Below are positions 324 to 23,063 of a stretch of 60,119 nt of DNA, piece after piece; the first letter of the stretch is position 1, and every line of letters begins with the position of its first letter. The DNA comes from an uncultured bacterium (GTDB lineage Bacteria > Atribacterota > Atribacteria > Atribacterales > Caldatribacteriaceae), in NCBI GenBank assembly GCA_937139415.1, contig CAKZPS010000009.1, positions 1 through 60,119 on the forward strand. The letters run 5' to 3'. Position numbers and translations under genes: made by a program. The notes beneath the pieces are model-generated. The model made no database searches, was not told where the DNA came from, and worked only from the letters and a program-made list of their open reading frames with translations.

Positions 324-1742
324 ATGAAGAGAATTTTTGTATCTATTCTTTTTGTGATATTGATTTCTAGCTTCTTTGGTCACGCTTTAGCTCAAGAACA
401 AATTACCCTTACTGTAGTTTGGCACGCGGGAATTTGTGCCGAAGCCTTGTTAGACGTGGCCAAAGATTATGAAAAATTGACCGGCGTAAAGGTGGTTGGA
501 GCCTTGGTTCCTTACGGACCCCAATGGCACGATAAAATTGCTTCAGAATTCGCCGCTAAAGGAAGTGGTTTTGACCTCGCTGCGTGGGATAGTCAATCAG
601 TGGCTGAATTCGCGGGTGGGGGACATTGTGTGCTTCTCAATCCCTATATGGAAAAATCTGACAAAGTGAATTTTGATACCTTTTTACCTGCGGCGCTCAA
701 AAGATATGGTGAATATCCTGACGGTAGTGGTAACCAGTACGCTTTGCCGGTAAATCAAGACTGCCTTGGGCTCATTTATCGTAGAGATCTTTTTGAAGAT
801 CCTAAGGAGAAAGAAGCCTTTAAAGCTAAATATGGGTATGAATTGGAGGTTCCCCAGACATACTCTCAACTCAGGGATATTGCTGAATTCTTTACAAGAC
901 CTGACCAGGGCTTGTATGGATTCGCTCAATATGGCGGTAGAGAATACGATTATTGTACAAGTATGTCTAACACCTTTATCTGGAGTTTTGGTGGTGCTCT
1001 GTGGAATCCTAAAACTTTCGAGGTAAAAGGCTATCTGGATAGCCCTGCTTCTATCGATGGAGTTAAATTTTTTGTTGACTTGTTTAAATTCTGCCCCCCT
1101 GGTTCAGAGACTTGGGGTTTCGACGAAGTGAATGTAGCTATGCAGCAAGGAAGAGTAGCTATGGCCATGCAATGGTTCTATTTCTTCGGATCTATGTTAG
1201 ACCCAAAAGTATCTACCATAGTGGATAAAGTTGGTTTTGCTATTCTTCCCGGTGGTGTGGGTCGTGATGGAAAATTCCGGAGAGTATTCAGCATGGGTGG
1301 TCAGGGTTTGGGTATTAACAAGTATTCGAAATACGTTGAAGAAGCGTGGAAATTTTTGGGATGGTATATGCAAAAGGATCAACAAATGCGCTATGCGAAG
1401 TTTTGTCAAACAGGAAATAAGCAAGTTCTCGAGGATCCCGAATGGTTGAAGCTTAACCCCTACAACGTGCTTTTTAAAGACGCCATGAACTACATTAATG
1501 ATTATTGGCATCTCCCAGAATACCCGATCTTGCTCGATATCATGCAAGAAGAAATTCATAACGCTATTACGGGCAAAAAAACTGTGGAACAGGCCCTCGC
1601 CGATTGTGCTGAGCGCCACGAGAGGGAGCTAAGAAGAGCAGGTTATGAAATTAACCGAACCGAGAATATTCCCGAAGTCCCTTATGAATTGGCTTACGGG
1701 GAACCTTATAGTGCTGAATTAGAAAAATACTATAACTACTGA
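324..1742 (+). CDS. ABC transporter sugar-binding protein (CUT1 family)
   Basis: Periplasmic solute-binding protein of 472 residues that delivers a carbohydrate or polyol to the permeases encoded downstream. An N-terminal signal peptide (MKR, hydrophobic core, HALA/QEQ cleavage near residue 24) is visible and has no lipobox cysteine, so the mature protein should be free in the periplasm. The body resembles family-1 extracellular binding proteins: the LTGVKV segment near residue 50, an aromatic-rich middle, and the C-terminal TVEQALADCAE helix. The start at 324 has the strong ribosome site GGGGGAGGG. It is the first gene of an operon behind palindromic operators. Substrate cannot be read from sequence; catabolic genes downstream suggest a polyol or pentose. 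Confidence 0.85.
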   Translation: MKRIFVSILFVILISSFFGHALAQEQITLTVVWHAGICAEALLDVAKDYEKLTGVKVVGALVPYGPQWHDKIASEFAAKGSGFDLAAWDSQSVAEFAGGGHCVLLNPYMEKSDKVNFDTFLPAALKRYGEYPDGSGNQYALPVNQDCLGLIYRRDLFEDPKEKEAFKAKYGYELEVPQTYSQLRDIAEFFTRPDQGLYGFAQYGGREYDYCTSMSNTFIWSFGGALWNPKTFEVKGYLDSPASIDGVKFFVDLFKFCPPGSETWGFDEVNVAMQQGRVAMAMQWFYFFGSMLDPKVSTIVDKVGFAILPGGVGRDGKFRRVFSMGGQGLGINKYSKYVEEAWKFLGWYMQKDQQMRYAKFCQTGNKQVLEDPEWLKLNPYNVLFKDAMNYINDYWHLPEYPILLDIMQEEIHNAITGKKTVEQALADCAERHERELRRAGYEINRTENIPEVPYELAYGEPYSAELEKYYNY

Positions 1743-1750
1743 TAGTGTTT

Positions 1751-1788
1751 TGGCGCCGATGGGGGATAAATCCACCTCATTGGCGCCA
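1751..1788 (+). other. Intra-operon hairpin between binding protein and permease genes
   Basis: TGGCGCC (1751-1757) pairs with GGCGCCA (1782-1788), and the stem continues inward through GATGG/CCTCAT, giving a long GC-rich hairpin. There is no U-tract, and the next gene has its own ribosome site just after it (GGAGGT, 1795-1800). Such hairpins usually protect the binding-protein mRNA 3' end and let it be expressed more than the permeases (inference). The second transporter has one in the same place. Confidence 0.6.
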
Positions 1789-1806
1789 GCTATAGGAGGT
1801 CCATTG

Positions 1807-2694
1807 ATGAATAACAATACTTATTACGAGAGTATCATTGAAAGAAAAAGTCGGTTAAGTGTTATTACGAGGATTATCATTTTAGGGCTTTTTCTTTCTT
1901 TCACCGTTTTTCCTCTTTTTTGGCTTTTTCTCTCTTCATTGAAAGATCGCTTGGATATTTTTGCCTTTCCTCCTCGGTTTCTTTTCAATCCGACTGTTGA
2001 AAATTACCGAGGCTTGTTCGTGAAAACTTTTTTAGAGGGAGGTGCTGGGCAAACCGACTTTGCTTTATGTCTTGCGAATAGTTTCATTACTGCCGGTTTA
2101 GGGACCTTTTTCGCAGTTGTTTTGGGTGTTATGGCTGGATATGCGTGTTCGAGGTTTCATTTTTTCGGTAAGAATGATTATCTCTTTTTTACTCTTTCTA
2201 CGCGCATGTTGCCGCCAGTAGCAGTTATTATTCCTATTTATATTATGTTCTCTCGATTAGGTTTGCAAGATACCCGTGTTGGTATGATTTTGCTCTATAC
2301 CATGGCTAACTTGGGCTTGGCTATATGGATTATGAAGGGTTTTTATGATTCTATTCCGACCCAATATGAGGAAGCCGGCTTAGTCGATGGCTATACCCGG
2401 TGGCAAATTTTCTGGAAAATTATTATTCCCTCAGTTAGGGGTGGAATTGCTGCTACTATGGGTTTTTGCTTCATTTTTGCTTGGAATGAATTTACCTTTG
2501 CTTCCATTGTGACTACGCGGTACGCTAAAACCCTACCACCTCGTATTGCTGCCGCATTAGGAGCAGCCGGACTGGATTGGGGACAAGTAGCGGCCGCCGG
2601 TTTTATTTTGATCATTCCCGTACTTGTTTTGTTTATTTTTATTCGTAATTATTTGTTGATGGGTATGACCTTTGGTGTTTTAGGAAGACGATGA
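1807..2694 (+). CDS. ABC sugar permease, MalG type
   Basis: Inner-membrane permease of 295 residues with about six hydrophobic segments. The cytoplasmic EAA loop near residue 187 (QYEEAGLVDG followed by a conserved IIIPS) docks the ATPase. The ending LLMGMTFGVLGR is typical of MalG-like partners. The ATG at 1807 was chosen over an upstream start at 1750 because GGAGGT lies 7 bases before it and the upstream extension would run through the hairpin. The stop overlaps the next start by ATGA. It should pair with the MalF-type permease at 3785. Confidence 0.85.
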   Translation: MNNNTYYESIIERKSRLSVITRIIILGLFLSFTVFPLFWLFLSSLKDRLDIFAFPPRFLFNPTVENYRGLFVKTFLEGGAGQTDFALCLANSFITAGLGTFFAVVLGVMAGYACSRFHFFGKNDYLFFTLSTRMLPPVAVIIPIYIMFSRLGLQDTRVGMILLYTMANLGLAIWIMKGFYDSIPTQYEEAGLVDGYTRWQIFWKIIIPSVRGGIAATMGFCFIFAWNEFTFASIVTTRYAKTLPPRIAAALGAAGLDWGQVAAAGFILIIPVLVLFIFIRNYLLMGMTFGVLGRR

Positions 2695-3776
2695 AAAATA
2701 TTCTTGTCACCTTTGGGTTGGTGATTTTTGTTGTTGCCCTTGGTCAAGCTTACGGTAATTCCGGTGAATTGTATTTTGAAGAATTGCAGAAACTTTTGGA
2801 ACATTTTTCATGCCCGGATTTAGAGGATTATTCTTTGCCTCTTTTTGATTATCGGGGGCGAATGGTTGGGCAAGTTATGGGTTGCCATTGGAATGAGAAT
2901 GTTTATGAATTTGTTGTCATTGGCGATCGAATACTAGGAATTGGGATGGGAAATTATCTCCACGCGCTCGTGGAAGAAGCCAAAAGCCTTGCGTGTCAAA
3001 CATTAACACGTCGCTTTGGAAACGGTGTAAGGGTTGTGGAAGTTCGTTTGGTATATAGTAATCCGCTCCTTTTTTTCATTCAGGTTTTTTACGATCATGG
3101 AGGTATGATGTTCAATGACCTTTATCTGAGGTTTGATTCTCTAAGATTTACCTTGGACGGTTGTAAGGAAAATATGTTACCTGAACAATCAGATGCTGGT
3201 TTAGTTTCCCTAGAAAAGAAAGTTTGGTTTGAAATATCGTATGAATTTCCGTATTGGGAATACTATCTTAGTAGCTTTTCGAACGTCGTTGTGACTTTGG
3301 CTGATTATTGGAAATTCAAAAGCTGGATAAAAATGCCTATTTATCCTGAAGAACCAGACTTGATGCTACTCAATGCCCATCTCATGATGCAAGATGTGGA
3401 CATGCTTCGTCGAAAGTGTAAATGTGAGAACTCAGAAAGTGGCACTGCTTCTATTGTGGAACAATTTATTAATGCCCGAGGGGGTAATGTGAAGGTATTC
3501 CCGCGAAGATTTTCTTTTTCTACGGCAAACATGGAGGAAGTCATACAATTCTTAACGTCTTCTCTAGATCAGCCTTTGTTACTCGAGATTGAGGGAGTTT
3601 GTTATAACTTTTATGGCATTCTGCTTGGATATTTTACTCATTCAAGAGGGTTTTTTCTAAACTGTATTGTGCCCACGAAAGTGATTCAGGGGACAAGATG
3701 GGAACGTTATTTTCTCAACGCAGCGGTTCCTCGGTCTTGGGTTGTTTATCAAATTGTTGAGAAGCACGGGGAGTGA
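2691..3776 (+). CDS. Secreted protein of unknown function inside the ABC operon
   Basis: I do not recognise this 361-residue protein. It begins with a signal peptide (MKNILVTFGL to about AYG, residue 22), so it should be exported. It is rich in aromatic residues and has cysteines near residues 41 and 64 and a CKC pair around residue 243. The last 120 residues (SESGTASIVEQF, then a GVCYNFYGILLGYF stretch, then WERYFLNAAVPRSW) faintly resemble the layout of C39-like papain-fold domains with the active residues missing; this is a guess. It starts by a 4-base ATGA overlap with one permease and is followed 8 bases later by the other, so it is translated as part of the transporter. An accessory binding, processing or envelope role is possible. 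Confidence 0.7.
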   Translation: MKNILVTFGLVIFVVALGQAYGNSGELYFEELQKLLEHFSCPDLEDYSLPLFDYRGRMVGQVMGCHWNENVYEFVVIGDRILGIGMGNYLHALVEEAKSLACQTLTRRFGNGVRVVEVRLVYSNPLLFFIQVFYDHGGMMFNDLYLRFDSLRFTLDGCKENMLPEQSDAGLVSLEKKVWFEISYEFPYWEYYLSSFSNVVVTLADYWKFKSWIKMPIYPEEPDLMLLNAHLMMQDVDMLRRKCKCENSESGTASIVEQFINARGGNVKVFPRRFSFSTANMEEVIQFLTSSLDQPLLLEIEGVCYNFYGILLGYFTHSRGFFLNCIVPTKVIQGTRWERYFLNAAVPRSWVVYQIVEKHGE

Positions 3777-3784
3777 TGTGATTT

Positions 3785-4774
3785 ATGGATGGAAAATTTA
3801 AGGATTCTATTGATAAAGCGGTAGACGGAGATGCTATTGCTGAGTTGGCTCGAGAAAGTAGCCGATCTATCGTAGCCAGAAAACATTATGGTCTCTCGGA
3901 TCGGGCCTTTATGTTCATTTTTCTCCTTCCTAGTCTTTTCGTCTTGCTCTTTTTGGTGGGTTACCCTTTTATCACCCTTATTCGATCAGGCTTCTATAAC
4001 TTTTCGGTACTCAGGGCGACTACACCGGCGAAATTTATCGGGGTAGAAAACTTTTCTTTTATTTTGACGGACGCTTTTACTTGGGAACGATTTATTTTTA
4101 CCGGCAAGTTTGTGGTACTTAATGTTTTTTTTCAGTTCATTCTCGGTGTCGTTATAGCTTATCTCCTTCAAAAAAATTTTAGAGGGAGAAGCCTGGTTTT
4201 AACTCTTATTCTCATGCCTATGATGCTCTGTCCAATTGTAGTAGGTTTATTCTGGAAATATATGTTGAATACTGAGTGGGGAATTGTTAATTATGTATTA
4301 AGCCTGTTTGGTGTAGGAAAGGTGGAATGGTTAGCAAGGGAAAACGTGAGTATTTACAGTGTGATCTTGGTTGATACATGGATGTGGACGCCATTTATGA
4401 TCCTCCTCGCTTTAGCGGCATTTACCGCTATTCCCAAGTATCTTTACGAAGCAGCAGAAATTGATCGTGCTTCCTCTTGGTTTAAATTTCGGCATATTAC
4501 CCTTCCCCTTTCTGCACCGGTTCTTATTATCGCGGTTCTATTTCGGATGATCGATTCTATTAAGGCTTTTGATTTGGTTTATACACTTACCGGTGGAGGT
4601 CCGGGGAGTGCCACTCAGACGCTTTCTTTTGACTTATATAAAAGGGCATTTCAATACTTTTATACTGGTGAAGCCTCGGCTTATGGGGTAATTTTATTAT
4701 TGATTATCATGAGTTCGAGTTTGGTTTTCATCCGTTATCTCAACAGACTAGCGATGCAGAATGTGAGAAGGTAG
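3785..4774 (+). CDS. ABC sugar permease, MalF type
   Basis: A 329-residue inner-membrane permease. A hydrophilic N-terminal tail of about 40 residues precedes six or more membrane helices. The EAA loop near residue 220 (YLYEAAEIDRASSW, then FRHITLPL) contacts the ATPase. The late TGGGPGSATQTL motif is characteristic of MalF/UgpA-like permeases. The ATG at 3785 has GGGGAG about 12 bases upstream, a little distant. It partners with the MalG-type permease at 1807 and the ATPases at 4775 and 5887. Confidence 0.85.
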   Translation: MDGKFKDSIDKAVDGDAIAELARESSRSIVARKHYGLSDRAFMFIFLLPSLFVLLFLVGYPFITLIRSGFYNFSVLRATTPAKFIGVENFSFILTDAFTWERFIFTGKFVVLNVFFQFILGVVIAYLLQKNFRGRSLVLTLILMPMMLCPIVVGLFWKYMLNTEWGIVNYVLSLFGVGKVEWLARENVSIYSVILVDTWMWTPFMILLALAAFTAIPKYLYEAAEIDRASSWFKFRHITLPLSAPVLIIAVLFRMIDSIKAFDLVYTLTGGGPGSATQTLSFDLYKRAFQYFYTGEASAYGVILLLIIMSSSLVFIRYLNRLAMQNVRR

Positions 4775-5872
4775 GTGTTCTTTTTGGCTCGTGTGCGTCT
4801 TGAAAGCTTGAAGAAACACTACGGATCAGTAAGAGCAATAGATGGAGTAAGTATTAATATTGAAAGTGGTCAATTAGTAGTTTTGTTAGGGCCATCCGGC
4901 TGTGGAAAAACCACTACCTTACGATGCATCGCAGGGTTGGAACAGCCGACCATGGGTAAAATTTATTTTGATGACCGCGAAGTGACTCACTTGAGTCCCA
5001 GCGAAAGAAACGTTGGTATGGTTTTTCAATTTTATGCTTTATATCCGCACATGAACGTTTACGAAAATATTACCTTTCCCTTGCGAGCCTGTCGAGTTCC
5101 GCGGAAAGCCATTGAGACGAAAGTTAAAGAAGTAGTCCAGATTTTCCAATTAGGAGGGCTTTTACGATATAAGGCGAGTATTCTACCTCCCGGTGACCAA
5201 CAACGTGTAGCTTTAGCGCGGGCAGTGATCCGCGACCCTAATGTTCTTCTGCTCGATGAACCACTGAGCGCCTTAGATGAAAAGTTTCGTGAAGAGATGC
5301 GCAGTGAGTTAGGTAAACTTCAAAAAAGGATCGGCATTACTACCATTTATGTGACGCATGATCAGAGGGAGGCAATGGCCTTAGGCGATGTTATCGTGGT
5401 GATGAAAGATGGAGTCATTGTACAAATGGGTTCTCCTGAGGAGCTTTACGAACATCCCCAGTCAGTTTTTGTTGGGAATTTCTTGGGTACTCCGGGCATG
5501 AATTTTGTGGAGTGCTTATATGATAATGGGTTGTTGTTTCTCGAAGGGACTGAGCACCGGTTGTCTCTTAAAAGGAGTGATCTCTTCGCAAAGCTTTCCT
5601 CTTACCAAGGAAAAGAAGTTATTTTGGGAATTCGACCAGAATATGTGAGCCTTTTTGAAAAAAGTTTTGAGAACGGCTTATCAATCGCGATTCTGGCAAT
5701 TGAGCCGGCAGGAAGATATCGTTTAGTAGATTTTTTGATTGGAGAGAGGGTGTTTCGAGTGAGAACGGATTGGAGCTTACCGTTAATTGTTGGACATAAG
5801 GTCTATCTTTACTTCTCGGAGGATCATATTTGCCTTTTCGATCGAAGTAGTGGAGAGGCAATCGTAACCTAA
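4775..5872 (+). CDS. ABC sugar transporter ATPase with a degenerate signature motif
   Basis: MalK/UgpC-family ATPase of 365 residues with a C-terminal OB-type regulatory domain. Walker A (GPSGCGKTT, about residue 40), a normal Q-loop (VFQFYALYP), Walker B (LLLDEP) and the switch histidine (VTHDQ) are intact. The ABC signature, normally LSGGQ, reads LPPGD (about residues 135-139). In an ABC dimer the signature acts on the partner's ATP, so this subunit should spoil the site formed with the partner's Walker A. The next gene encodes that partner, with an intact signature. Start may be GTG 4775, immediately after the permease stop, or TTG 4784, which is better spaced from AAGGTAGG. Confidence 0.85.
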   Translation: MFFLARVRLESLKKHYGSVRAIDGVSINIESGQLVVLLGPSGCGKTTTLRCIAGLEQPTMGKIYFDDREVTHLSPSERNVGMVFQFYALYPHMNVYENITFPLRACRVPRKAIETKVKEVVQIFQLGGLLRYKASILPPGDQQRVALARAVIRDPNVLLLDEPLSALDEKFREEMRSELGKLQKRIGITTIYVTHDQREAMALGDVIVVMKDGVIVQMGSPEELYEHPQSVFVGNFLGTPGMNFVECLYDNGLLFLEGTEHRLSLKRSDLFAKLSSYQGKEVILGIRPEYVSLFEKSFENGLSIAILAIEPAGRYRLVDFLIGERVFRVRTDWSLPLIVGHKVYLYFSEDHICLFDRSSGEAIVT

Positions 5873-5886
5873 GAGAGGAGAATGAT

Positions 5887-7011
5887 ATGCTCGAGTTACG
5901 AGATATTACTAAAGCTTTTGGGGACATTGTAGCCGTTAATCATCTGGATTTAGAAGTAAAGAAAGGAGAGTTTTTCATTATTCTTGGCCCTACGGGTGCA
6001 GGTAAGACGACTACCTTGCGAATAACGATTGGTCTTGAAAAACCTGATTCTGGAAAGGTTCTCTATGAAGGCCAAGACATTACCCAGCTTTCGCCACCTT
6101 TGCGTGACTTCGCTTTTATGTTTGAGTCCCACAATTTGTATCCGGTTTTGAACGTCTACGATAATCTTGCATTCCCCTTACGTTCACCGCTTTTTAAGGT
6201 TCCCGAGAGTGAAGTGAAAAAGAGGGTAGAAGCGATTGCCGATGAGCTTCATATTACCCACCTCTTACCACGTAGAGTGAGTCATTTGAGCGGAGGGGAA
6301 CAACAACGTGTTGCTCTGGGTAGAGCTCTTATTCGGAGACCCAAAATTTATATTCTTGATGAGCCAATTAGCAGCTTAGATTATAAGTTACGAGAAGAAC
6401 TCCAAACCGAGTTTAAGCGAATTCACGAGGAATACGGTATCACCATTTTAAGTGCTACTCATGACAATGTTTCTGCCATGGCGATGGCCAGTCGAATTGG
6501 GATTATGGAAAATGGTCGTATTCTCCAGGTTGGAGCCCCGCGGGATATCTATACCAATCCCATGAGTGTTAGTGTGGCCCGAATTATCGGAGCTCCATCA
6601 ATGAATTTCATAGACTGTGTAGTGGGGGAGACTTCATTATGGATGCATGGTCATCAAGAGTTTGTTATTCCGCTTTCGCCTCCGATCGTGGGCATATTGA
6701 GAAGAGAATTGAAGGGGCAAGGCAGGATTTTGGTCGGTATTTGGCCAGAAGATATAATGGTTTCGGAAAAGATTCAGGAAGGTTATCTAAAGGCTCTTGT
6801 AGAAAATATCGAATACCATGGGGCAGAGAGATTTGTGAACTTGGCGTTAGGAGAAAGCCCTTTGAAAGCATTGCTTATAAGGAATTGTGTTCCTAAGCAT
6901 GGGGCGGAGATTTTCGTGTTCTTGCCTGAAGAAAAATTGTACTTTTTTCATCCTCAAAATGGTTTGAGAATATATGTACAATTGGGAAGGAATGGTCATT
7001 ATGCCTTTTGA
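5887..7011 (+). CDS. ABC sugar transporter ATPase, second subunit
   Basis: MalK/UgpC-family ATPase of 374 residues, paralogous to its upstream neighbour. Walker A (GPTGAGKTT), a canonical signature (LSGGEQQR), Walker B (YILDEP) and the switch histidine (ATHD) are present, but the Q-loop glutamine is replaced by glutamate (MFESHNLYP, about residue 79). A heterodimer with the 4775 product would have one site with canonical residues and one with both Q-to-E and LPPGD. The start at 5887 follows GAGAGGAG. It overlaps the small membrane-protein gene downstream. Confidence 0.87.
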   Translation: MLELRDITKAFGDIVAVNHLDLEVKKGEFFIILGPTGAGKTTTLRITIGLEKPDSGKVLYEGQDITQLSPPLRDFAFMFESHNLYPVLNVYDNLAFPLRSPLFKVPESEVKKRVEAIADELHITHLLPRRVSHLSGGEQQRVALGRALIRRPKIYILDEPISSLDYKLREELQTEFKRIHEEYGITILSATHDNVSAMAMASRIGIMENGRILQVGAPRDIYTNPMSVSVARIIGAPSMNFIDCVVGETSLWMHGHQEFVIPLSPPIVGILRRELKGQGRILVGIWPEDIMVSEKIQEGYLKALVENIEYHGAERFVNLALGESPLKALLIRNCVPKHGAEIFVFLPEEKLYFFHPQNGLRIYVQLGRNGHYAF

Positions 7012-7219
7012 AGAATCTCCTTTATCGTCGGGTTTACGTTTTGGAAAATACGAAAAGCGGAAATTTGTTAGTTTAGCTGAAATGGTCGGTATGGGGATTA
7101 TGGTATTCGGCATTGTTCTATTATTCCAGCCTTTTTATATTCAGCTCTTTAAATGGGGTTTCCCCTTTCTTCTCGTCGGTTACACAACGTATAACATTTT
7201 TGCTCATATACCTCGATAG
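7001..7219 (+). CDS. Small membrane protein, unknown
   Basis: A 72-residue protein with a polar, basic N-terminus (GKYEKRKFVSLAE) and two hydrophobic segments (about residues 30-46 and 50-66). I do not recognise a family. The ATG at 7001 lies 8 bases after GGAAGGAA and overlaps the ATPase gene by 11 bases, so translation is coupled to the transporter operon. ATG 6992 is an alternative. It could be a small regulatory subunit of the transporter, but nothing in the sequence proves it. Confidence 0.6.
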   Translation: MPFEESPLSSGLRFGKYEKRKFVSLAEMVGMGIMVFGIVLLFQPFYIQLFKWGFPFLLVGYTTYNIFAHIPR

Positions 7220-7287: not shown

Positions 7288-8148
7288 ATGTTTCGTTTCG
7301 GAGTGGACACGTTTATCTGGACGGAAAAGTTTTCGGAGAAAGATTTATGGATTATTCCCCGGGCAAAAGAATTGGGGTTTGAGGTCATCGATATTTTTAT
7401 TTCTCACCCGGAGACCTTTCCCACGGAGCTCGTGAAGGAAAAAATAAAAGAGGTTGGCATCGAGCCTGTGACGACGACCACCCTCAGTAAAGAGACCAAT
7501 CTTATTTCTCCCGATCCTACCATCCGCGCTAATGGGGTAGAAAGCCTAAAAAAAATTATAGACATCAATGTGGCCATTGGTTCCAGAATTTTGGGAGGCG
7601 TGAATTACGCTGCTTGGGGATATTTGAGTGGTAAACCGCGCACCGAAGAGGAATGGGAGTGGTCGGTGAGTGCTATGCGTGAAGTGGCTGCATATGCACA
7701 GGAAAAAGGAGAAGTAGTTATATCGGTAGAACCGGTGCAGCGTTTCGAAACCCATTTTCTTAATATTGCTGAGGATGCAGTGCGTTACTGTCAGGATGTC
7801 GGTTTTGATAACGTCAAGATTCATCTTGATTCTTTTCATATGATTCGTGAAGAGCGAAGTTTTCGCAAAGCGGTTGAAATTTGCGGTAAAAAATATCTCA
7901 GTTATGTTCATGTCTGTGAAAGTGATCGAGGAATACCGGGAACGGGATTAGTTCCTTGGAAGGAATTTTTTACCGCTCTAAAGGATATCGGATACAGCGG
8001 CCCCTTAGTGATTGAGTCTTTCGATCCCAGTTTTGAAGAACTCAATAGACTCTGTGCGATATGGCGAAAGTTTGCCGAATCCGGTGAGGCCCTGGCTGTG
8101 GAAGGGCTAAAGAATTTGAAGGCCATTGCTCAGGAGATAGGTGTTTAA
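7288..8148 (+). CDS. Ketose 3-epimerase-like TIM-barrel enzyme
   Basis: A 286-residue xylose-isomerase-like TIM barrel close to the D-tagatose/D-psicose 3-epimerase group. The expected metal and catalytic residues can be traced: Glu in SVEPVQRF (about residue 151), Asp in HLDSFHM (about 184), His in YVHVCESDRG (about 210) and Glu in VIESFDP (about 245). The family epimerises ketoses, or related ketose phosphates, at C3. It follows the first transporter with ribosome site AAAGGAGAG and is closed by a terminator at 8155. In the context of tetrose/pentose genes it could also act as an erythrulose-phosphate epimerase/isomerase; substrate is inferred. Confidence 0.75.
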   Translation: MFRFGVDTFIWTEKFSEKDLWIIPRAKELGFEVIDIFISHPETFPTELVKEKIKEVGIEPVTTTTLSKETNLISPDPTIRANGVESLKKIIDINVAIGSRILGGVNYAAWGYLSGKPRTEEEWEWSVSAMREVAAYAQEKGEVVISVEPVQRFETHFLNIAEDAVRYCQDVGFDNVKIHLDSFHMIREERSFRKAVEICGKKYLSYVHVCESDRGIPGTGLVPWKEFFTALKDIGYSGPLVIESFDPSFEELNRLCAIWRKFAESGEALAVEGLKNLKAIAQEIGV

Positions 8149-8154
8149 AACTTT

Positions 8155-8191
8155 ACCCTCATGTTGCTACAAAACATGAGGGTTATTTGTT
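8155..8191 (+). terminator. Intrinsic terminator of the first operon
   Basis: ACCCTCATGTT (8155-8165) pairs perfectly with AACATGAGGGT (8173-8183), followed by TATTTGTTT. It separates the first transporter operon from the regulator gene. Confidence 0.8.
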
Positions 8192-8308
8192 TCCATTTTG
8201 CGGGTATTGATAATAGAATTCAGGGACTCGTTAGACATAGGTAACTATCTCGCTGATTTCCTCGGCTTTTGGTGGCGAATTTTTAGTTGTGAAGGGAGAG
8301 ATTTCTTC

Positions 8309-8337
8309 TTGACTTTTGTTCTTTTCTTTGATAAATT
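8309..8337 (+). promoter_or_regulatory. Promoter of the SorC regulator and second operon
   Basis: TTGACT at 8309-8314, a 17-base spacer and TAAATT at 8332-8337. The operator pair begins within ten bases downstream. Confidence 0.55.
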
Positions 8338-8344
8338 GTTAAAT

Positions 8345-8382
8345 GACAATTGTTATGATTTTTGTTAGACGACAATTGTTAT
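8345..8382 (+). promoter_or_regulatory. Putative SorC operator pair (autoregulation)
   Basis: The 12-mer GACAATTGTTAT occurs identically at 8345-8356 and 8371-8382, 26 bp apart, each with the palindromic core ACAATTGT. The same core lies at 165-172 in front of the first transporter operon. The second site ends a few bases before the start codon, so binding would block the promoter or the start region. Inference: autoregulation by the adjacent SorC-family protein. Confidence 0.65.
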
Positions 8383-8390
8383 AAAGGGGG

Positions 8391-9362
8391 ATGCGCTTGG
8401 AGGGACCGCTCAATAAAAGTCTGCTTGCCCAAATTGCTAAGCTCTACTATCTTGATGATTTGTCGATCATTGAGATTGCCAAGATTTTAGGAATGTCTCG
8501 CCAAAGGTGTTCAAGGTTACTCAAGAAAGCGAAGGAAGAGGGAATCGTTCAAATTGAGGTCATCGATCCGGCACAAGAAGGGGTCCTCAATTTAGAGAAA
8601 GAGTTCGAGAAGCGTTTTTCCCTGCGCAAGGTTCATGTGGTGAGTGTGTTTAGTAAGGACAGCGACCTCATTCGTAAAGCGGTAGGCGAGGCAGGAGCAC
8701 GATTTTTTTTGAAAGTCGTTGCCCCAGGCAATAAAGTTGGTATTGCTTATGGTCGGACTCTCTATGAATTTGTTCGCTACGTGAAACCCTCGTTTAGTGA
8801 AGGTAACCGGAATTTGAGCGTCGTGCAATTAATGGGGGGATTGAGTCGTATTTCGGCGAATGTCTTTGCTACTGAGATTCCAAAACGTTTGGCCGAAGCC
8901 TTAGAGGCACAAGTGTATTACCTTCCTGCACCTGCTTTCACCCGCGATCAGGTCACCCGAGATGCCATGCTGAAAGACGAAAATGTTCAGGCTACTTTGA
9001 GGGAGAAAATCGACATCGCTTTGGTGGGCATCGGGAGTGTTTCTCCCCATGCGATGTTGATTCAGACTGGTGCTATTACCCCGAGTGAATATGAAGAACT
9101 CCTTGCGAAAAAAGCGGTGGGTGACATTTGTGGAACCTTTTTCGACATCTCTGGAAATATCGTCGAGTTTAGTGGAAACGAAAGGAGAATTGCCGTCTCA
9201 TTAAGAGATCTACGGAAGAAGTGTCCCTTGGTGATCGGCATCGCAGGAGGGTTTGAGAAGGCCGAGGCTATTTTGGGAGCCTTGCGAGGAAGATTCCTCC
9301 ACGTTCTCGTGGTTGATAGTTTGACTGCAGAAGCAATTCTCAAGAAACTTGAGGAAAAGTGA
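8391..9362 (+). CDS. SorC/DeoR-type sugar-responsive transcription regulator
   Basis: A 323-residue SorC-family regulator. The N-terminal helix-turn-helix (SIIEIAKILGMSRQRCSRLL, about residues 25-44) binds DNA. The remaining 250 residues form the phosphosugar-binding domain, with family landmarks GIAYGRTLYEF and VQLMGG near residues 120-145 and a late GIAGG. The family senses phosphorylated sugars. It heads the second transporter/polyol gene run and has paired palindromes in its own promoter and in the first operon's promoter. ATG 8391 sits immediately after GGGGG, which is too close, so TTG 8397 may be the true start. Confidence 0.85.
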   Translation: MRLEGPLNKSLLAQIAKLYYLDDLSIIEIAKILGMSRQRCSRLLKKAKEEGIVQIEVIDPAQEGVLNLEKEFEKRFSLRKVHVVSVFSKDSDLIRKAVGEAGARFFLKVVAPGNKVGIAYGRTLYEFVRYVKPSFSEGNRNLSVVQLMGGLSRISANVFATEIPKRLAEALEAQVYYLPAPAFTRDQVTRDAMLKDENVQATLREKIDIALVGIGSVSPHAMLIQTGAITPSEYEELLAKKAVGDICGTFFDISGNIVEFSGNERRIAVSLRDLRKKCPLVIGIAGGFEKAEAILGALRGRFLHVLVVDSLTAEAILKKLEEK

Positions 9363-9387
9363 AAGAGAATAGTAAGGGAGGTGATAT

Positions 9388-9441
9388 ATGATTAATTACG
9401 CTCGATATGTGATGCGTGTGAATGGTGCAATAGTATGGTGA
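9388..9441 (+). CDS. Possible 17-codon leader peptide
   Basis: An ATG at 9388 follows an excellent ribosome site (GGGAGGTGA, 9376-9384) and opens a 17-codon frame ending at TGA 9439-9441, between the regulator and the second binding protein. The peptide (MINYARYVMRVNGAIVW) has no known family. It may be a leader peptide, a remnant or a fortuitous frame. Confidence 0.3.
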   Translation: MINYARYVMRVNGAIVW

Positions 9442-9484
9442 TGTGGCAAAAAAGAGTTGTTTCCAAGAGAGGAGGGCTTGAGAA

Positions 9485-10882
9485 ATGAAAAAAGTAGCGT
9501 GGTTGATTAGTGTAGTGGGATTGGTGTTCTTATTTGCAGTAGCTTTTGCTCAAGAAGACCCCTTAGCCTATTATCAACAAGCGAAAATCAACTGGAAAGC
9601 GTTTGAAGGAACCCAGTTGACCATTGGATTGAATAAGCACCCCTTCACGGAGTCTCTGCGACCACTCCTATCCATTTTTGAGCAGTTAACCGGTATCAAG
9701 GTTGCATACGTCATTCTTCCTGAGGAAGAGTTCTTTGAGAAACTATTGATTGACCTCTCCAGTGGCGGCGGTATTTTCGATGTCTATATGACTTCTCCGA
9801 TGTTCGAATGGCGCTACCAATACGCCGGTTGGATTGAAGATCTCAATACCTATTGGAATAACCCTGAACTTACCGACCAAGCGTGGTACAACCGCGAAGA
9901 CTTTTATGAAAAACCACTCCGAGCAAACATGTGGGATGGAACCATTGCTGGGGGATTGGGTCAGGGGAGATGGAATGGTATTCCGGTCATGGTAGAGTTC
10001 TTCTGTCAAGCATACCGTAATGATTTGCGAGAGAAGTGGGGTCTTACCGTTCCAACAACGTATCCGGATCTTTTGGACACGTTGACGAAGGCTGCAGAGT
10101 TGGGCAAGCAAGAAAAACCCCAAGTCTACGGAGTGGCTAACCGAGGTATCAAGAGCTGGTCGACGGTGCACTCGGGGTATTTTACCGCCTTTAGCACCTA
10201 TGGGCAGAAAGATTTGAACCCCGATTTGACCGCGGCGATTAATACTCCCCAAGCGAAGGAAATTACCAAAATTTGGGTAGATATTCTACAAAAAGCTGGA
10301 CCTCCAGGTTGGCCGAACTATACTTGGTACGATGCAAAACAAAATTTCGCTGCAGGGAGATTCTATGAAATTACCGACTGTGATTTCTTCGCCGCAACTT
10401 ATGAGAATCCGGCACAATCAGTTGTGGCAGGTAAGACTGGATATGCTTTACCACCTGCTGCTCCTGACGGAAACATCACCTCTAACATGTGGACTTGGTC
10501 TTTGGGGATGAGCGCGCTGTCCAAGCATAAAGAAGCAGCTTGGCTATTCCTCATGTGGGCAACTGCTCCTCAAACCATGCTCGATGGTACTCTCAAGTAT
10601 GATAATTTCAATCCAACCAGAAAATCAGTCTGGGAAAATCCTGCGGTAGTAGAGAAAACCATGAAGTGGGGAACCAAACCTGGAGAATATCGAGAAATTG
10701 TAGATGCTATGTATGCAAAATATGGTGATATCCGCTGGACACCTAATCCCGATGTTACCGCACTTGGTGATATCTGGGCAGAAGCGCTTCACGAAGCATA
10801 TGAAGGTAAGAAACCGGTTGAGCAGGCCTTGGATGACGCAGCAGTAAAAATCAACGAACTTATGACTAAGTGGAAGAAATAG
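9485..10882 (+). CDS. ABC transporter binding protein, polyol/sugar type
   Basis: A 465-residue periplasmic binding protein of the family-1 (CUT1) class. The signal peptide ends at AVAFA/QED near residue 22 and has no lipobox. The mature part has the LTGIKV segment, many Trp/Tyr residues typical of polyol or sugar pockets, and the C-terminal PVEQALDDAAVKINELM helix. ATG 9485 has GGAGGG upstream. It is followed by a hairpin and the permease genes. Its arrangement with two ATPase genes recalls the rhizobial glycerol system GlpSTPQV, and the downstream tetritol-type enzymes suggest a polyol ligand (inference). Confidence 0.85.
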   Translation: MKKVAWLISVVGLVFLFAVAFAQEDPLAYYQQAKINWKAFEGTQLTIGLNKHPFTESLRPLLSIFEQLTGIKVAYVILPEEEFFEKLLIDLSSGGGIFDVYMTSPMFEWRYQYAGWIEDLNTYWNNPELTDQAWYNREDFYEKPLRANMWDGTIAGGLGQGRWNGIPVMVEFFCQAYRNDLREKWGLTVPTTYPDLLDTLTKAAELGKQEKPQVYGVANRGIKSWSTVHSGYFTAFSTYGQKDLNPDLTAAINTPQAKEITKIWVDILQKAGPPGWPNYTWYDAKQNFAAGRFYEITDCDFFAATYENPAQSVVAGKTGYALPPAAPDGNITSNMWTWSLGMSALSKHKEAAWLFLMWATAPQTMLDGTLKYDNFNPTRKSVWENPAVVEKTMKWGTKPGEYREIVDAMYAKYGDIRWTPNPDVTALGDIWAEALHEAYEGKKPVEQALDDAAVKINELMTKWKK

Positions 10883-10894
10883 GAATAAAGTAAT

Positions 10895-10924
10895 GGCTGC
10901 AAGAGAAACGTTCCTCTTGCAGCC
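10895..10924 (+). other. Intra-operon hairpin after the second binding protein
   Basis: GGCTGCAAGAG (10895-10905) pairs perfectly with CTCTTGCAGCC (10914-10924). No U-tract follows and the permease ribosome site comes directly after. The position equals that of the 1751-1788 hairpin in the first transporter, which supports a role in mRNA stability or differential expression. Confidence 0.65.
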
Positions 10925-10947
10925 AGGTGAAGGTGAGGTGACGAGGT

Positions 10948-11850
10948 TTGGCCAACGGTATGGAACTGCGCCGAAGTTTTTGGAGTAGAAACATCGCTTT
11001 ACTCCTTTTCTTGCCTGCTTTTCTTCTGACGGTAGGAATCTTGGTTCCTTTTGGATATTCGGTAGTCATGTCATTTACCAACTTTAATCTCACCACCGGT
11101 ACTTCTGATTTCATTGGAATTGGCAATTACCTAAAACTTACCAGAGATCCCGAATTCTGGAATTCCCTCAAGGTGACGCTCCTTTTTACGGTTGGAGCGG
11201 TCATTTTCGAGGTTGGAATTGGATTCATTGCTGCGTACTTGCTGAATCTGGGTCTTTTGGGGCAGAAGATATGGCGTACCCTGTTTTTATTGCCAGTCAT
11301 GCTTCCGCCCACGGTGGCGGCGATCATGTGGAAATTAATGATGGCCCCCATTCAAGGTGTATTTAATTATCTTTTGCAGCTGGTGGGGTTTGCGGGTTCG
11401 GAGTGGTTGGGAGGGTCGAGTACGGCACTCTTATCGGTGATTCTCATTGATGCTTATGTTTTTGTGCCTTTTGCCGGTATGATCTTTCTGGCTGGTGTGC
11501 AAAACTTGCCCAAGGAGCCTTACGAAGCTGCCGCAGTTGATGGAGTTTCAAATTGGTTTACTTTTCGGAAATTAACTATTCCTCTTCTCAAGCCGGTGAT
11601 TCTCATCGTTTTGCTCTTTCGCATCATGGACTGTCTCAAACATTTTGATATTATTTATGCAGCGACCAAGGGTGGTCCGGCCAGTGCTACCATGACTCTC
11701 TCGGTACAAGCGTATTACCATAGTTTTCGTTGGACAAATATGGGCTATGCTTTTGCGCATCTCGTGGTTTTGTGGGCGATCGTTTATGTACTGAGTTACT
11801 TCTTGGTAGGACAATGGAAGAAAGCAGTGAGTGAGGTTCATGGCGGTTAG
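10948..11850 (+). CDS. ABC sugar/polyol permease, MalF type
   Basis: A 300-residue inner-membrane permease with six predicted helices. The EAA loop near residue 190 (PYEAAAVDGVSNW, then KLTIPLL) contacts an ATPase. A KGGPASATMTL motif follows, as in other MalF-type permeases. TTG 10948 fits the ribosome site AGGTGAGGTG; ATG 10960 is a possible shorter start. It belongs to the second transporter operon and pairs with the permease at 11868. Confidence 0.85.
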   Translation: MANGMELRRSFWSRNIALLLFLPAFLLTVGILVPFGYSVVMSFTNFNLTTGTSDFIGIGNYLKLTRDPEFWNSLKVTLLFTVGAVIFEVGIGFIAAYLLNLGLLGQKIWRTLFLLPVMLPPTVAAIMWKLMMAPIQGVFNYLLQLVGFAGSEWLGGSSTALLSVILIDAYVFVPFAGMIFLAGVQNLPKEPYEAAAVDGVSNWFTFRKLTIPLLKPVILIVLLFRIMDCLKHFDIIYAATKGGPASATMTLSVQAYYHSFRWTNMGYAFAHLVVLWAIVYVLSYFLVGQWKKAVSEVHGG

Positions 11851-11867
11851 TTGAGGGGGTTAGTGTC

Positions 11868-12734
11868 ATGGAGAACAACAAGAAAATTTCGTCAACCAAG
11901 TTGATATCTACTGTTGGGTTGATTATCCTCATGTTGTGGACTGCTTTTCCTTTATATTGGGTATTGAACATGTCTATCCAGACCCCCTTGGATGTTATCT
12001 CCTATCCTCCAAAATTTGTTTTTGATGCGACCTTAGAGAATTATTCCGTGGTTCTTTTGGGTAGAGCATGGTTGGGAAAGTATGAAACGGTGCAAACTGA
12101 TTTTCCTCGGTATTTCTTGAACAGCCTCATCGTTTGTTTTGGAGCAGTGGGACTGAGCATGTTAGTTGGCGTGCCAGCAGCATATTCCTTGGCACGTTAC
12201 AACTTTAGAGGAAAAGAAAATTTCGCTTTCACTCTTTTGAGTTTTCGATTCGCCCCTGGATTAATTGTGATTTTGCCTCTCTTCGTCATTTTTAGGAGAA
12301 TAGGAATATATGGTACCTATCATGGGATGATGCTGGCTTATCAGCTCATCACCCTTCCTTTCGCAGTGTGGCTGATGAGAGGTTTTTTCGAAGATATTCC
12401 TATGGAATTAGAACATGCTGCGCGTATTGATGGATATTCTTGGTGGGGTATCTTTCGAAAGGTTGACCTACCCTTAGTCGCTCCAGGAATTGCGGCAACG
12501 GCGATTCTTTCCTTCATTTTTGCTTGGAATGAGTTTTTGTTCGGGTATATTCTTTCCTCCGATGTGACTCGACCGGTTACCCCTTCTCTCATGGGATTCA
12601 TCTCCTATGAGCAAGTGTTGTGGGGACAAATGGCTGCAGCAGCAATTGTTACCCTTTTGCCTTCCTTGGTGCTCGCTATTTTCATTCAAAGGTATCTCGT
12701 GCGAGGTCTGACTTTCGGTGCAGTGAAAGGATAG
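11868..12734 (+). CDS. ABC sugar/polyol permease, MalG type
   Basis: A 288-residue inner-membrane permease. Six hydrophobic segments are visible, the EAA loop (MELEHAARIDGYSWW, about residue 180) is present, and the end reads RYLVRGLTFGAVKG as expected for MalG-like proteins. It lies 17 bases after its MalF-type partner with GAGGGGG as ribosome site, and 14 bases before the ATPase pair. Confidence 0.85.
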   Translation: MENNKKISSTKLISTVGLIILMLWTAFPLYWVLNMSIQTPLDVISYPPKFVFDATLENYSVVLLGRAWLGKYETVQTDFPRYFLNSLIVCFGAVGLSMLVGVPAAYSLARYNFRGKENFAFTLLSFRFAPGLIVILPLFVIFRRIGIYGTYHGMMLAYQLITLPFAVWLMRGFFEDIPMELEHAARIDGYSWWGIFRKVDLPLVAPGIAATAILSFIFAWNEFLFGYILSSDVTRPVTPSLMGFISYEQVLWGQMAAAAIVTLLPSLVLAIFIQRYLVRGLTFGAVKG

Positions 12735-12748
12735 TAGGGGGAAGCGCT

Positions 12749-13873
12749 ATGGTGGAGTTAGAGTTACGCAAAGTGACTAAGAAGTATGGAGATGTGGTGG
12801 CGGTAAAAGACCTGTCTTTTAAAACCCGAAAAGGGGAAATGCTTGTTTTGCTTGGGCCTCCCGGTGCAGGAAAGAGCTCAACCTTGAAAATGATAGCAGG
12901 GATTGAAGAGGTAACCGCCGGAGAGATTGTAATGGATGGTCAAGTCATTAACCATATCGATCCTGCAGAGCGCGATGTGGCCATGGCGTTCGAAACCTAC
13001 GCTCTCTATCCTCATCTTTCAGTTTTTGAGAATATTGCCTTTCCCCTTCGTTCGCCCAAAAGAGCACATGTCTTTTCTGAAGAGGTGATCAAAAATAAGG
13101 TGGTAGAAGTAGCTCAGTTTTTAGAGATTGACATGCTTTTGGAACGGAAACCGAAAGAGTTGAGTGGTGGACAGCGCCAAAGGGTGAGTTTGGCCCGGTG
13201 TCTCGTACGGGAACCAAAAATGTTCCTCTTGGATGAGCCAATTGCTCATCTGGATGCGAAACTCCGTCACCGGTTAAGACGAGATTTGAAACGATGGCAA
13301 CGGGAGAGACAAACCACTACTGTATATACCACTACTGATTATCTTGAAGCGTTTTCGGTGGGGGATCGTATTGCCATTTTAAATAGGGGAATCTTGCAGC
13401 AGATTGGTACATGGGAAGAAATATATAACCAGCCGGCTGATACTTTCGTGGGGATGATCGTGAGCGATCCTCCTATGAATTATATGAATGCTCGAATAGT
13501 GCATGAGGGGGAAAGACTCTTTTTAGAAGCGAAAGGAGTACTTTTTCGGCTTTCTCTGCCGGTGCAGGAGAAGCTAAGGAGCATGAGAGAGGAAGAGGTC
13601 ATCGTGGGAGTTTTCCCGAGTAAGATTGCCCTTGTGGAAGAGCCATCCGTTGTTTCTTCGGGAACGGTTATTGATGGTGTAGTTAAGTTTGTGGAATTGC
13701 GGGGTTCGAGAAAGATTGCCTTTGTGTCCACGGGTCGTGACTTCAATTTTACTGTACAACTTGGAGTTGAAGAAAATGTAAGACCTGGGGATCAAATACG
13801 ATGCCTCTTTGGGGAGGAAGTTTTGCAAGTTTTTGATAAACAGTCAAGAAAGAATATTCTTTTCTTGAGTTAA
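12749..13873 (+). CDS. ABC transporter ATPase lacking the switch histidine
   Basis: A 374-residue MalK/UgpC-like ATPase. Walker A (GPPGAGKSS), a canonical signature (LSGGQRQR) and Walker B (FLLDEP) are present. The Q-loop has Glu instead of Gln (MAFETYALYP), and the H-loop normally reading VTHD is TTTD (about residue 195), so the catalytic switch histidine is missing. Its own ATP site should hydrolyse poorly, while its signature can serve the partner encoded next. ATG 12749 follows AGGGGGA; longer frames upstream merely overlap the permease gene. The C-terminal 130 residues form the regulatory OB-type domain. Confidence 0.87.
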   Translation: MVELELRKVTKKYGDVVAVKDLSFKTRKGEMLVLLGPPGAGKSSTLKMIAGIEEVTAGEIVMDGQVINHIDPAERDVAMAFETYALYPHLSVFENIAFPLRSPKRAHVFSEEVIKNKVVEVAQFLEIDMLLERKPKELSGGQRQRVSLARCLVREPKMFLLDEPIAHLDAKLRHRLRRDLKRWQRERQTTTVYTTTDYLEAFSVGDRIAILNRGILQQIGTWEEIYNQPADTFVGMIVSDPPMNYMNARIVHEGERLFLEAKGVLFRLSLPVQEKLRSMREEEVIVGVFPSKIALVEEPSVVSSGTVIDGVVKFVELRGSRKIAFVSTGRDFNFTVQLGVEENVRPGDQIRCLFGEEVLQVFDKQSRKNILFLS

Positions 13874-13885
13874 GGTGATGAAAAA

Positions 13886-15007
13886 ATGGCTGAAGTGAAG
13901 GTAGAACATGTTTGGAAGTTTTACCGAGAGGAAGCCGGAGCAGGCCAACGGGTAGAGGCGGTAAAGGACGCTACCTTTCATTGTAATGATCAAGAATTCT
14001 TATGTCTTTTGGGGCCTTCGGGTTGTGGTAAAACTTCGACTCTGCGAATGATTGCCGGTCTTGAACATATTTCTCGAGGGGATATTTACATCAATAATCG
14101 GAGAGTCAACAACCTTTTACCCAAAGATCGGATGCTTGCCATGTCTTTTGAGTCATATGCGTTGTATCCTCCGCTTTCGGTGTACGATAATATTGCTTTC
14201 CCTTTACGGGCACGCAAATATCCAGAGCAGAAGATTAAGGAAAAAATAGCACTTGTGGCTGATCTTTTGGAGATAGGGGATATCTTGCATTTTCGACCGG
14301 CCAAACTGAGTGGAGGCGAACAACAACGTGTTTCTCTGGCACGGGCTTTGGTGCGTGAAGACGCCCAAGTGACCCTTATGGATGAACCCATATCGCATCT
14401 TGATGCACAACTCAAGGCGAAACTGCGCATTGATTTAAAGAGAATACAGCGAGAGTGGGGCCTCACGGTCATCTATGTCACTCATGATCAGTTGGAAGCG
14501 CTCAGTATGGCCGATAAAGTGGTGGTTATGAATTTAGGCGAAATCCAACAAGTAGGCACTCCAGATGATCTCTATGAAAAACCGGCCAACCTCTTTGTAG
14601 CCGGTTTTATTGGTGAACCGCCTATGAACTTTCTCGAGTGTGTGATGGTGAAAGAGTTAGATCGAGTGTACCTTCAGTTTCATGATTTCGCTTTTCCACT
14701 CGATCCTCAAATATCACAAGCAATCGAGAGAGAAAATCAGAGTAACGGTAAATGGGTTATCGGTATTCGTCCTGGGGATATCGTCCTTGGAGTAGAGTTA
14801 AAAGGGGCGTATTCTATGAAGGGGACGATATACAGTGTAGAACCATTAGGAGAATCTTCGATTGTGACCGTGGATGTTCATGGACAGAGAGTGCTTGTCG
14901 AAGTAGCTGGAACCTGTGCGGAGGAAGAAGGGAGAGTGGTCTCCTTTTTCTTCCGTAAGGAAAAAACCCACATTTTTAATGCTTTGACCGGAAAGGCTAT
15001 TCAATAA
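13886..15007 (+). CDS. ABC transporter ATPase, catalytically complete partner
   Basis: A 373-residue MalK/UgpC-like ATPase. Walker A (GPSGCGKTS), signature (LSGGEQQR), Walker B (TLMDEP) and switch histidine (VTHDQ) are all present; only the Q-loop is altered to Glu (MSFESYALYP). Together with the 12749 product it would make one largely canonical and one degenerate composite site. The start has the ribosome site AAGGTGATG 7 to 12 bases upstream. It is followed 17 bases later by the dehydrogenase gene, linking transport and catabolism in one transcript. Confidence 0.88.
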   Translation: MAEVKVEHVWKFYREEAGAGQRVEAVKDATFHCNDQEFLCLLGPSGCGKTSTLRMIAGLEHISRGDIYINNRRVNNLLPKDRMLAMSFESYALYPPLSVYDNIAFPLRARKYPEQKIKEKIALVADLLEIGDILHFRPAKLSGGEQQRVSLARALVREDAQVTLMDEPISHLDAQLKAKLRIDLKRIQREWGLTVIYVTHDQLEALSMADKVVVMNLGEIQQVGTPDDLYEKPANLFVAGFIGEPPMNFLECVMVKELDRVYLQFHDFAFPLDPQISQAIERENQSNGKWVIGIRPGDIVLGVELKGAYSMKGTIYSVEPLGESSIVTVDVHGQRVLVEVAGTCAEEEGRVVSFFFRKEKTHIFNALTGKAIQ

Positions 15008-15024
15008 TAAAAGAGGTGAGCACG

Positions 15025-16125
15025 ATGTACGTGGAGGCAATTCCTAATCTTCCTCGAACTATGAAGGCGGTGGTAGCTTATAAACCGGGTGATTACCGTT
15101 TCGAGGAAGTGCCCATTCCAGAAATTGGGGATGAAGAAGTTTTATTAAAGGTAGGGGGATGTGGTATTTGTGCTGGTGATGTCAAAGGGTATCATGGAGC
15201 GCCATCTTTTTGGGGTGGTGAGGGTCAACCTGCTTGGATTCAAGCACCTTTCATTCCCGGGCATGAGTTTTACGGGCAGGTAGTGGCCTTAGGGAAAGGT
15301 GCCAAGGAAAAATATGGTCTTTCCTTAGGAGATTGGGCGGTCTCAGAGCAGATCATCCCTTGTGAAAAGTGCCGTTTCTGCCGAGAAGGAAAGTACTGGA
15401 TGTGTGAGGTGCATAATATCTACGGATTTCAACGGGAGGTGGCCGATGGAGCCTATGCTGAATACGTACGTCTCCCTAAAACTGCACGCAATTACAAGTT
15501 GCCGGAAGGGTTTCCCTTGGACGTTGCTCCTTATGTAGAGCCGTTGGCTTGTGCTATTCATGCGGTGGAGCGGGGAGACATCCAGTTCAACGATGTCGTG
15601 GTAATTGCAGGATTGGGTTCTCTGGGATTAGGAATGGTGCAGGCGGCGAGACTCAAGAATCCGAAACTCCTCATTGCCATCGATGTGCGTGACAAGCGCA
15701 ATCTCTTAGCCAAAGAGTATGGTGCAGATTTAGTCATGAATCCCTTGAAAGAAGATGTGGTGGGCCAGGTGAAGTCCCTCACCGGCGGATATGGCTGTGA
15801 TGTATACATTCAAGCGAGCGGTCACCCCTCGGGAGCCATACAGGGATTACAGATGATCCGCAAATTAGGGAGGTTTGTCGAGTTTAGCGTGTATAACGAT
15901 CCGGTGACGGTGGACTGGAGTATTATCGGGGATCGCAAGGAATTAGATTTGCGCGGCGCCCACTTGAGTCCCTATACTTATGAAACCACCATTCGTTTCC
16001 TGCATGACGGTCGGATCAAGGCTGATAAGATTATCACTCATCGCATGCCTCTTGCCGAATTTGAGAAGGGATTCGAGATGGTAGAGAGAGGAGAGGAATC
16101 GATTAAGGTGGTACTCATTCCTTGA
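15025..16125 (+). CDS. eltD: Zinc-dependent polyol dehydrogenase, erythritol/L-threitol dehydrogenase type
   Basis: A 366-residue medium-chain zinc alcohol dehydrogenase. Catalytic zinc ligands lie in GGCGICAGD and PGHEF; the structural zinc site is the four-Cys run CEKCRFCREGKYWMC. A Rossmann motif (GLGSLGLG) binds NAD(P). Segments such as HGAPSFWGGEGQP, DIYGFQ-like NIYGFQ and VDWSIIGDRKELD match my memory of mycobacterial erythritol/L-threitol dehydrogenase (EltD), which oxidises tetritols to erythrulose. ATG 15025 has AGAGGTGAG upstream. RpiB and DhaKL follow immediately, as expected for erythrulose phosphorylation and isomerisation. The exact polyol remains inferred. Confidence 0.75.
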   Translation: MYVEAIPNLPRTMKAVVAYKPGDYRFEEVPIPEIGDEEVLLKVGGCGICAGDVKGYHGAPSFWGGEGQPAWIQAPFIPGHEFYGQVVALGKGAKEKYGLSLGDWAVSEQIIPCEKCRFCREGKYWMCEVHNIYGFQREVADGAYAEYVRLPKTARNYKLPEGFPLDVAPYVEPLACAIHAVERGDIQFNDVVVIAGLGSLGLGMVQAARLKNPKLLIAIDVRDKRNLLAKEYGADLVMNPLKEDVVGQVKSLTGGYGCDVYIQASGHPSGAIQGLQMIRKLGRFVEFSVYNDPVTVDWSIIGDRKELDLRGAHLSPYTYETTIRFLHDGRIKADKIITHRMPLAEFEKGFEMVERGEESIKVVLIP

Positions 16126-16152
16126 AAAAAGTGTCTATAGGAGCGTGATAAC

Positions 16153-16611: not shown

Positions 16612-16613
16612 GC

Positions 16614-23062: not shown

Positions 23063-23063
23063 A

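Follow-up and report, generated by a model that had tools for sequence, protein, structure and literature searches.

CUT1 importers are normally described as consisting of a substrate-binding protein (SBP), two permeases, and a pair of ATPases. The periplasmic loop P2 of MalF makes contact with the binding protein in cis. P2 belongs to the permease, and MalM, a member of the maltose regulon, is encoded outside the permease pair. C39-like peptidases carry a stretch of the DCGPxxxxMxLxYW type, and the C39-like domains (CLDs) of exporters are cytosolic. One report presents degenerate C39-like domains as dead peptidase modules that are used for binding in ABC exporters (PMC6363468), and another records C39_2 genes in the vicinity of ABC permease genes and sugar PTS genes (PMC10318531).

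Here, a gene located between the two permease genes of a CUT1-type importer was analyzed in a window of 60,119 nucleotides, i.e., the whole stretch of DNA under study, which is contig 9 of a host draft genome of 2.32 Mb with 96% completeness. The named relatives of the locus belong to Candidatus Atribacteria MAGs, and an Atribacterota bacterium is accordingly assumed as the host. The gene (2691..3776, + strand) encodes a 361-residue, putatively secreted protein of an unnamed family, with a signal-like segment, a prodomain-like domain, and a papain-like domain in which the catalytic residues appear to be lost. On balance, this protein is probably a secreted pseudo-peptidase that acts as a dedicated, non-enzymatic, extracytoplasmic accessory of its importer, where the fold is a predicted one and the interaction is one that we infer.

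Operon layout and gene order

The importer genes from 324 to 7011, and the features mapped within the 361-residue protein, lie on the forward (+) strand. The SBP of the importer (324..1742; SBP_bac_1, Pfam PF01547, E 5.6e-30) is followed by PermG, a MalG-like permease (1807..2694; BPD_transp_1, E 4.1e-20), the gene of the 361-residue protein, and PermF, a MalF-like permease (3785..4774; BPD_transp_1, E 7.9e-18). The top NCBIfam matches of the permeases, namely, MalG for PermG and GlcT/UgpA/MalF for PermF, were under their cut-offs. As PermG starts with ATG at 1807 and stops with TGA at 2692-2694, the start codon at 2691 overlaps the PermG stop in an ATGA. The initial annotation had described a 361-residue exported protein that is ATGA-coupled between two importer permeases, and this description agreed with the sequence.

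Two MalK-like ATPases follow, ATPase 1 at 4775..5872 (Pfam ABC_tran, E 7.9e-32) and ATPase 2 at 5887..7011 (ABC_tran, E 1.8e-32). The signature of ATPase 1 was read as LPPGDQ instead of LSGGQ, and the same reading was obtained for G001 and G004 and, by eye, for G024. ATPase 2 kept an LSGGE signature, but the Gln of its Q-loop was replaced by Glu (FESHNLYP) in 4/4. These readings suggest an asymmetric ATPase pair with one degenerate ATP site, which would be unusual for a sugar importer. Glu was also found at the Q-loop position of both ATPases of a second importer (window 12749-15007; FETYALYP and FESYALYP). An 81-residue hydrophobic reading frame at 6974-7219 shares 38 bases with the end of the ATPase 2 gene; no Pfam family was found for it above the cut-off.

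The order PermG, 361-residue protein, PermF was found in all six operons (window, G001, G004, G024, G359, and G019), where the operons of G001 and G004 are split between contigs inside PermG with the SBP on another contig, G359 rests on a single 4,379-base contig, and the first 81 residues of the G019 PermF run into the contig end. Thus, the position of the gene in related genomes, for which a check had been proposed, is conserved. At the junctions between the gene and the permeases, everything from an overlap of 4 bases to a spacer of about 10 bases was seen. In the paralogous operons, the order was PermF-PermG in 12 of 12 complete cases, with at most 13 bases between the permeases and no gene between them; the first operons of L078 and L079, which are incomplete or unresolved, do not enter this count.

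The tight coupling to both permeases in 6/6 operons, together with a permease order reversed relative to the 12 paralogous operons, would also suit an assembly or stoichiometry factor, i.e., a periplasmic chaperone that meets nascent PermG and PermF and is not part of the working transporter. However, the paralogous importers have no gene between their permeases, and no periplasmic chaperone was recognised among the structural matches listed for model 1, although absence from that list excludes nothing. Such a factor was considered unlikely, while being the best placed of the rival explanations.

Distribution and co-occurrence with the importer

Five other genomes carry an orthologue of the protein at the corresponding position, with 22-44% identity; four belong to the phylum and one (G359) to another phylum. 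A search with the family profile detected the gene in five of the 50 phylum genomes (host included) and, within a wider set of 386 genomes, in six, with one copy in each of the six and none in the other 380. The phylum of the sixth member yielded one carrier among 17 genomes, and sampling around that member yielded one among 386, a sample that overlaps the other 386-genome set. Nine extra matches with E values of 0.01 to 0.5 were discarded as short fragments; none of them was confirmed in the profile search of the phylum. As the orthologues share their place, lack internal stops in all six genomes, and show a dN/dS of 0.18 in the one unsaturated pair, the reading frame is not a chance one.

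The SBP followed the same pattern. An SBP at least 74% identical to that of the window was present in the same six genomes and in no others among the 386. The orthologues in the five other genomes were 74-92% identical (E below 1e-240 for all six, the query included), and the next-best match was 42% identical, a gap that holds for best matches because at most the four best candidates were scored per genome. All six operons with an orthologous SBP also carry the gene; its absence from otherwise conserved transporter operons, which had been named beforehand as an argument against an accessory, was not seen. Within the 386 genomes, the gene is encoded with, and only with, one importer, which is the co-occurrence expected of an accessory subunit of an ABC importer.

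Downstream cluster and possible cargo

A catabolic cluster is located at 7288-18287 of the window. It encodes a TIM-barrel protein resembling D-psicose 3-epimerase, a SorC-type regulator, the second CUT1-like importer, a zinc alcohol dehydrogenase, an RpiB-type isomerase, and DhaK/DhaL kinase subunits. Measured against the DerI equivalog, whose cut-off is 240, the RpiB-type isomerase reached 158 bits; the score of the TIM barrel, 173, likewise stayed below its cut-off of 300. The enzymes LerK, LerI, and DerI are described for tetritol catabolism (PMC10733421). Since a dehydrogenase, a kinase, and two isomerases together are reminiscent of tetritol catabolism, the cargo of the importer may be a small polyol or a ketose, which is a reasonable assignment but a weak one, and the cluster may be a tetritol or small-polyol pathway. 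Further downstream, at 23046-25963, two neighbouring convergent proteins appeared alkaline phosphatase-like by eye.

Signal-like segment, domains, and sequence searches

The N-terminus of the protein (MKNILVTFGLVIFVVALGQAYG) showed a mean hydropathy of 2.44 over 17 residues, and a basic segment followed by a hydrophobic one (hydropathy 2.2 to 2.65) was found in all six orthologues. Export is predicted from this segment, which covers residues 1-22 (2691..2756) and would be cleaved after AYG. An N-terminal alpha/beta domain (residues 45-155; 2823..3155) contained strands and a helix in both structure models described below and was prodomain-like in model 1. The C-terminal domain (residues 187-361; 3249..3773) was papain-like in both models. 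Across the six orthologues, 34 residues were invariant, of which 13 fell among the 111 residues of the N-terminal domain, 21 among the 175 of the C-terminal domain, and none in the 31-residue linker. They include A262-R263-G264, the only invariant triplet, and the CxC of Cys243 and Cys245 (3417..3425), the only cysteines invariant in 6/6.

The protein had been annotated as belonging to no recognised family, and the searches led to the same view. It had no match in Pfam, NCBIfam, or PHROGs (best stray PHROG at E 0.18), and at a Pfam threshold of E 10, no family, PF13529 and PF01640 included, was returned for the five members scanned (5/5). PADLOC yielded nothing for the protein other than a stray Cas10 at E 0.047. 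No match was accepted from PDB sequence searches, where two growth-factor-like matches at E 0.02 were judged to be chance. Plasmids and phages searched by tblastn gave no match, a search of GTDB contigs with the single protein returned nothing, and the viral protein fold library held no usable match.

For profile-profile comparison, the six-sequence alignment was compared by hhalign with ten C39_2 proteins from Atribacterota and elsewhere, which were picked from 31 matches, 20 of which were taken as loci and 19 of which yielded a readable reading frame. The scores were not above those of 30 column shuffles, either for the whole length or for the C-terminal half. Accordingly, the basis of the papain-like assignment is the predicted structures together with a motif alignment, and does not include profile homology.

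Predicted fold

Two models were built from four-sequence alignments, and their confidence was middling. Model 1 (AlphaFold2, four aligned sequences) had a pLDDT of 63.4 and a pTM of 0.64, and model 2 (AlphaFold, led by the G019 orthologue, locus L046) had a pLDDT of 54.6 and a pTM of 0.43; both showed the same order of structural elements. Foldseek returned no match at E <=0.001 for either model. Its best match for model 1 was UfSP (E 0.046), and its top rows for model 2 were SAS-6 head domains (E 0.03), a similarity that was ascribed to the N-terminal domain alone.

The 1000 best Foldseek chains for model 1 were re-aligned by VIA-align, and the best 50 were listed. The SpeB zymogen (1dki) was aligned over 208 residues at Z 9.7 and an rmsd of 4.8, spanning residues 34-357 of the model. 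UfSP (145 residues) also reached Z 9.7, followed by prostaphopain B (Z 9.2; 198 residues) and prointerpain A (Z 9.1; 199 residues). Judged by entry titles, 50/50 of the matches listed for model 1 were papain-fold proteins, with Z 6.9 at rank 50, compared with a stated background whose top Z is 7-8 and whose Z at rank 50 is 4-5. In the case of model 2, 50/50 of the matches listed were again papain-fold, with a best Z of 9.4. In both models, the C-terminal domain is predicted to have a central helix on an antiparallel sheet, as in the papain-like fold. A papain-like fold (clan CA) of the C-terminal domain is thus likely by modelling, and a prodomain-like nature of the N-terminal domain is plausible. 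The proposal that the tail may be a degenerate C39-like fold fits both models, as all listed re-aligned matches are papain-like.

Catalytic positions

The catalytic positions were assigned by motif and not by residue-level structural alignment. Residues 194-207 (SSFSNVVVTLADYW; SDFSTCLLMLADYW in G019) align by motif with the C39-like stretch, and the central helix begins at 195-196 in the models, which fits this assignment. In the C39_2 proteins of Atribacterota, the corresponding stretch reads NCGxAxAxMxxAYY, with Cys and His kept by eye. At codon 195 (3273..3275), where the catalytic Cys is expected, the six orthologues had S/S/S/D/D/D, Ser being that of the window. At codon 307 (3609..3611), six residues before the conserved glycine of a GY, F/N/S/N/V/R were found in place of the expected catalytic His. 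The residue before the invariant P328, where Asp is expected, was V/L/L/F/F/L.

No His was located at or next to position 307, and no Asp or Asn before P328, in any of the six. Columns 300-332 contained no His in five orthologues, and the only one of the window protein lies off-site at 317. On this alignment, the catalytic Cys and His expected of an active papain-like cysteine peptidase appear to be missing in 6/6. A processing component, one of two roles offered by the initial annotation, is therefore unlikely.

An active papain-superfamily enzyme, or one with new chemistry, would process the SBP or a substrate before import. The papain-like models with their zymogen-like prodomain would agree with it, as would the residues invariant in 6/6 (S194, S197, C243, C245, R263, E299, and Y308), with Ser194/Ser197 or the CxC as candidate sites. 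Moreover, 3/6 orthologues have Cys199, roughly one turn of the helix away from where the catalytic Cys is expected, which makes a shifted active site conceivable in those three. However, the expected Cys is Ser or Asp, the His and Asp/Asn positions carry other residues as described above, and fast divergence would be unusual given a fixed small substrate. An enzyme was accordingly judged improbable, more so than an assembly factor.

The other role offered, a second substrate-binding component, is unsupported because none of the matches listed was described as a binding protein. The export signal and operon place would be expected of a second substrate-binding protein or receptor, but the importer already has a highly conserved SBP at 324, the 361-residue protein matched no SBP profile in Pfam, and papain-like folds were listed with no importer SBP among them, an absence that by itself excludes nothing. 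A second SBP was considered very improbable.

Evolutionary rate

The dN/dS of the gene was 0.183 for the pair G001-G004, which belong to the same genus and form the only unsaturated pair, and the gene is thus under purifying selection. For the same pair, the neighbours gave 0.010 (SBP), 0.022 (PermG, from 137 codons only), 0.064 (PermF), and 0.046 and 0.062 (ATPases). Between G000 and G359, i.e., across phyla, identity was 73% for the SBP, 69% for PermG, 59% for PermF over its first 132 aligned residues, and 22% for the 361-residue protein; local BLAST put the four at 73%, 69%, 57%, and 23%, respectively. Within the order, the SBP was 85-92% identical to that of the window. These cross-phylum identities and the shared place indicate that the position of the gene is conserved while its sequence diverges fast. 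Compared with the neighbouring proteins, divergence of the 361-residue protein is much faster, yet under constraint. Very fast divergence relative to the neighbours might also suggest a decaying or selfish passenger that has no transport role and is kept by operon integrity, but the gene is open in 6/6 genomes over two phyla with its invariant residues, is selected against amino acid change, and is present in 6/6 orthologous operons, which makes a passenger the least credible of the explanations weighed.

Proposed role

A dedicated extracytoplasmic accessory without enzymatic activity is the reading preferred here. The initial proposal of a dedicated accessory stands in this form, as gene place and co-occurrence fit it, and is unlikely in its substrate-binding and processing versions. 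The protein would be made from the importer operon in translational coupling to both permeases and exported via its signal segment. Its two domains would be an alpha/beta one that is prodomain-like and a papain-like (clan CA) one whose catalytic Cys, His, and Asp/Asn have been lost. The protein would stay outside the cytoplasmic membrane and bind its own importer, on the extracytoplasmic side of the PermG-PermF pair, at the SBP, or at both, and may serve there as a docking, gating, or assembly module. Such a role would parallel that of the degenerate C39-like binding modules of ABC exporters or, in cis, that of the P2 loop of MalF. We infer both that the protein binds the transporter and that it takes part in docking or gating.

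A bolder version, which is tentative and rather doubtful, would make the protein a new class of importer subunit: a secreted, dead papain-type zymogen fold that the importer requires as its third extracytoplasmic component, working in trans as a P2 docking domain set free from the permease would, and evolving fast against a changing surface partner or threat while the SBP is nearly fixed. A near-fixed SBP beside a fast-changing partner raises the question of what this partner meets outside the membrane.

The gene represents a real, previously unnamed family. Its predicted scaffold is of a known kind, and its setting was not found described in the literature searched. No such importer subunit was named there, which is no proof of its absence from print. 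If the proposal is true, an extra secreted dead-peptidase subunit would be an unexpected importer part, and another papain-type scaffold would be used for binding, here on the import side. Moreover, a putative function class would be obtained for a protein that was nameless in every library searched.

Comparison with known systems

The C10/C47 zymogens (streptopain SpeB, interpain A, and staphopain B) are secreted and combine a prodomain with a papain-like domain, as is predicted for the 361-residue protein. Unlike them, the latter lacks the catalytic Cys and His at the expected positions in 6/6 and has no C10 profile match, and its gene lies inside an importer operon. The C39_2 peptidases (PF13529) are likewise papain-like and exported; however, they keep Cys and His by eye, whereas the 361-residue protein has neither a PF13529 match nor profile-profile similarity to them.

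The CLDs of exporters such as HlyB resemble the protein in being papain-like dead modules tied to an ABC transporter, and the C39 domain of PCAT1 was among the structural matches (Z 8.5 and 8.6). A CLD is an N-terminal extension of an exporter, whereas the 361-residue protein would be a separate, exported protein of an importer. As with P2 of MalF and MalM, the protein would be an extracytoplasmic part beyond the SBP and the channel.
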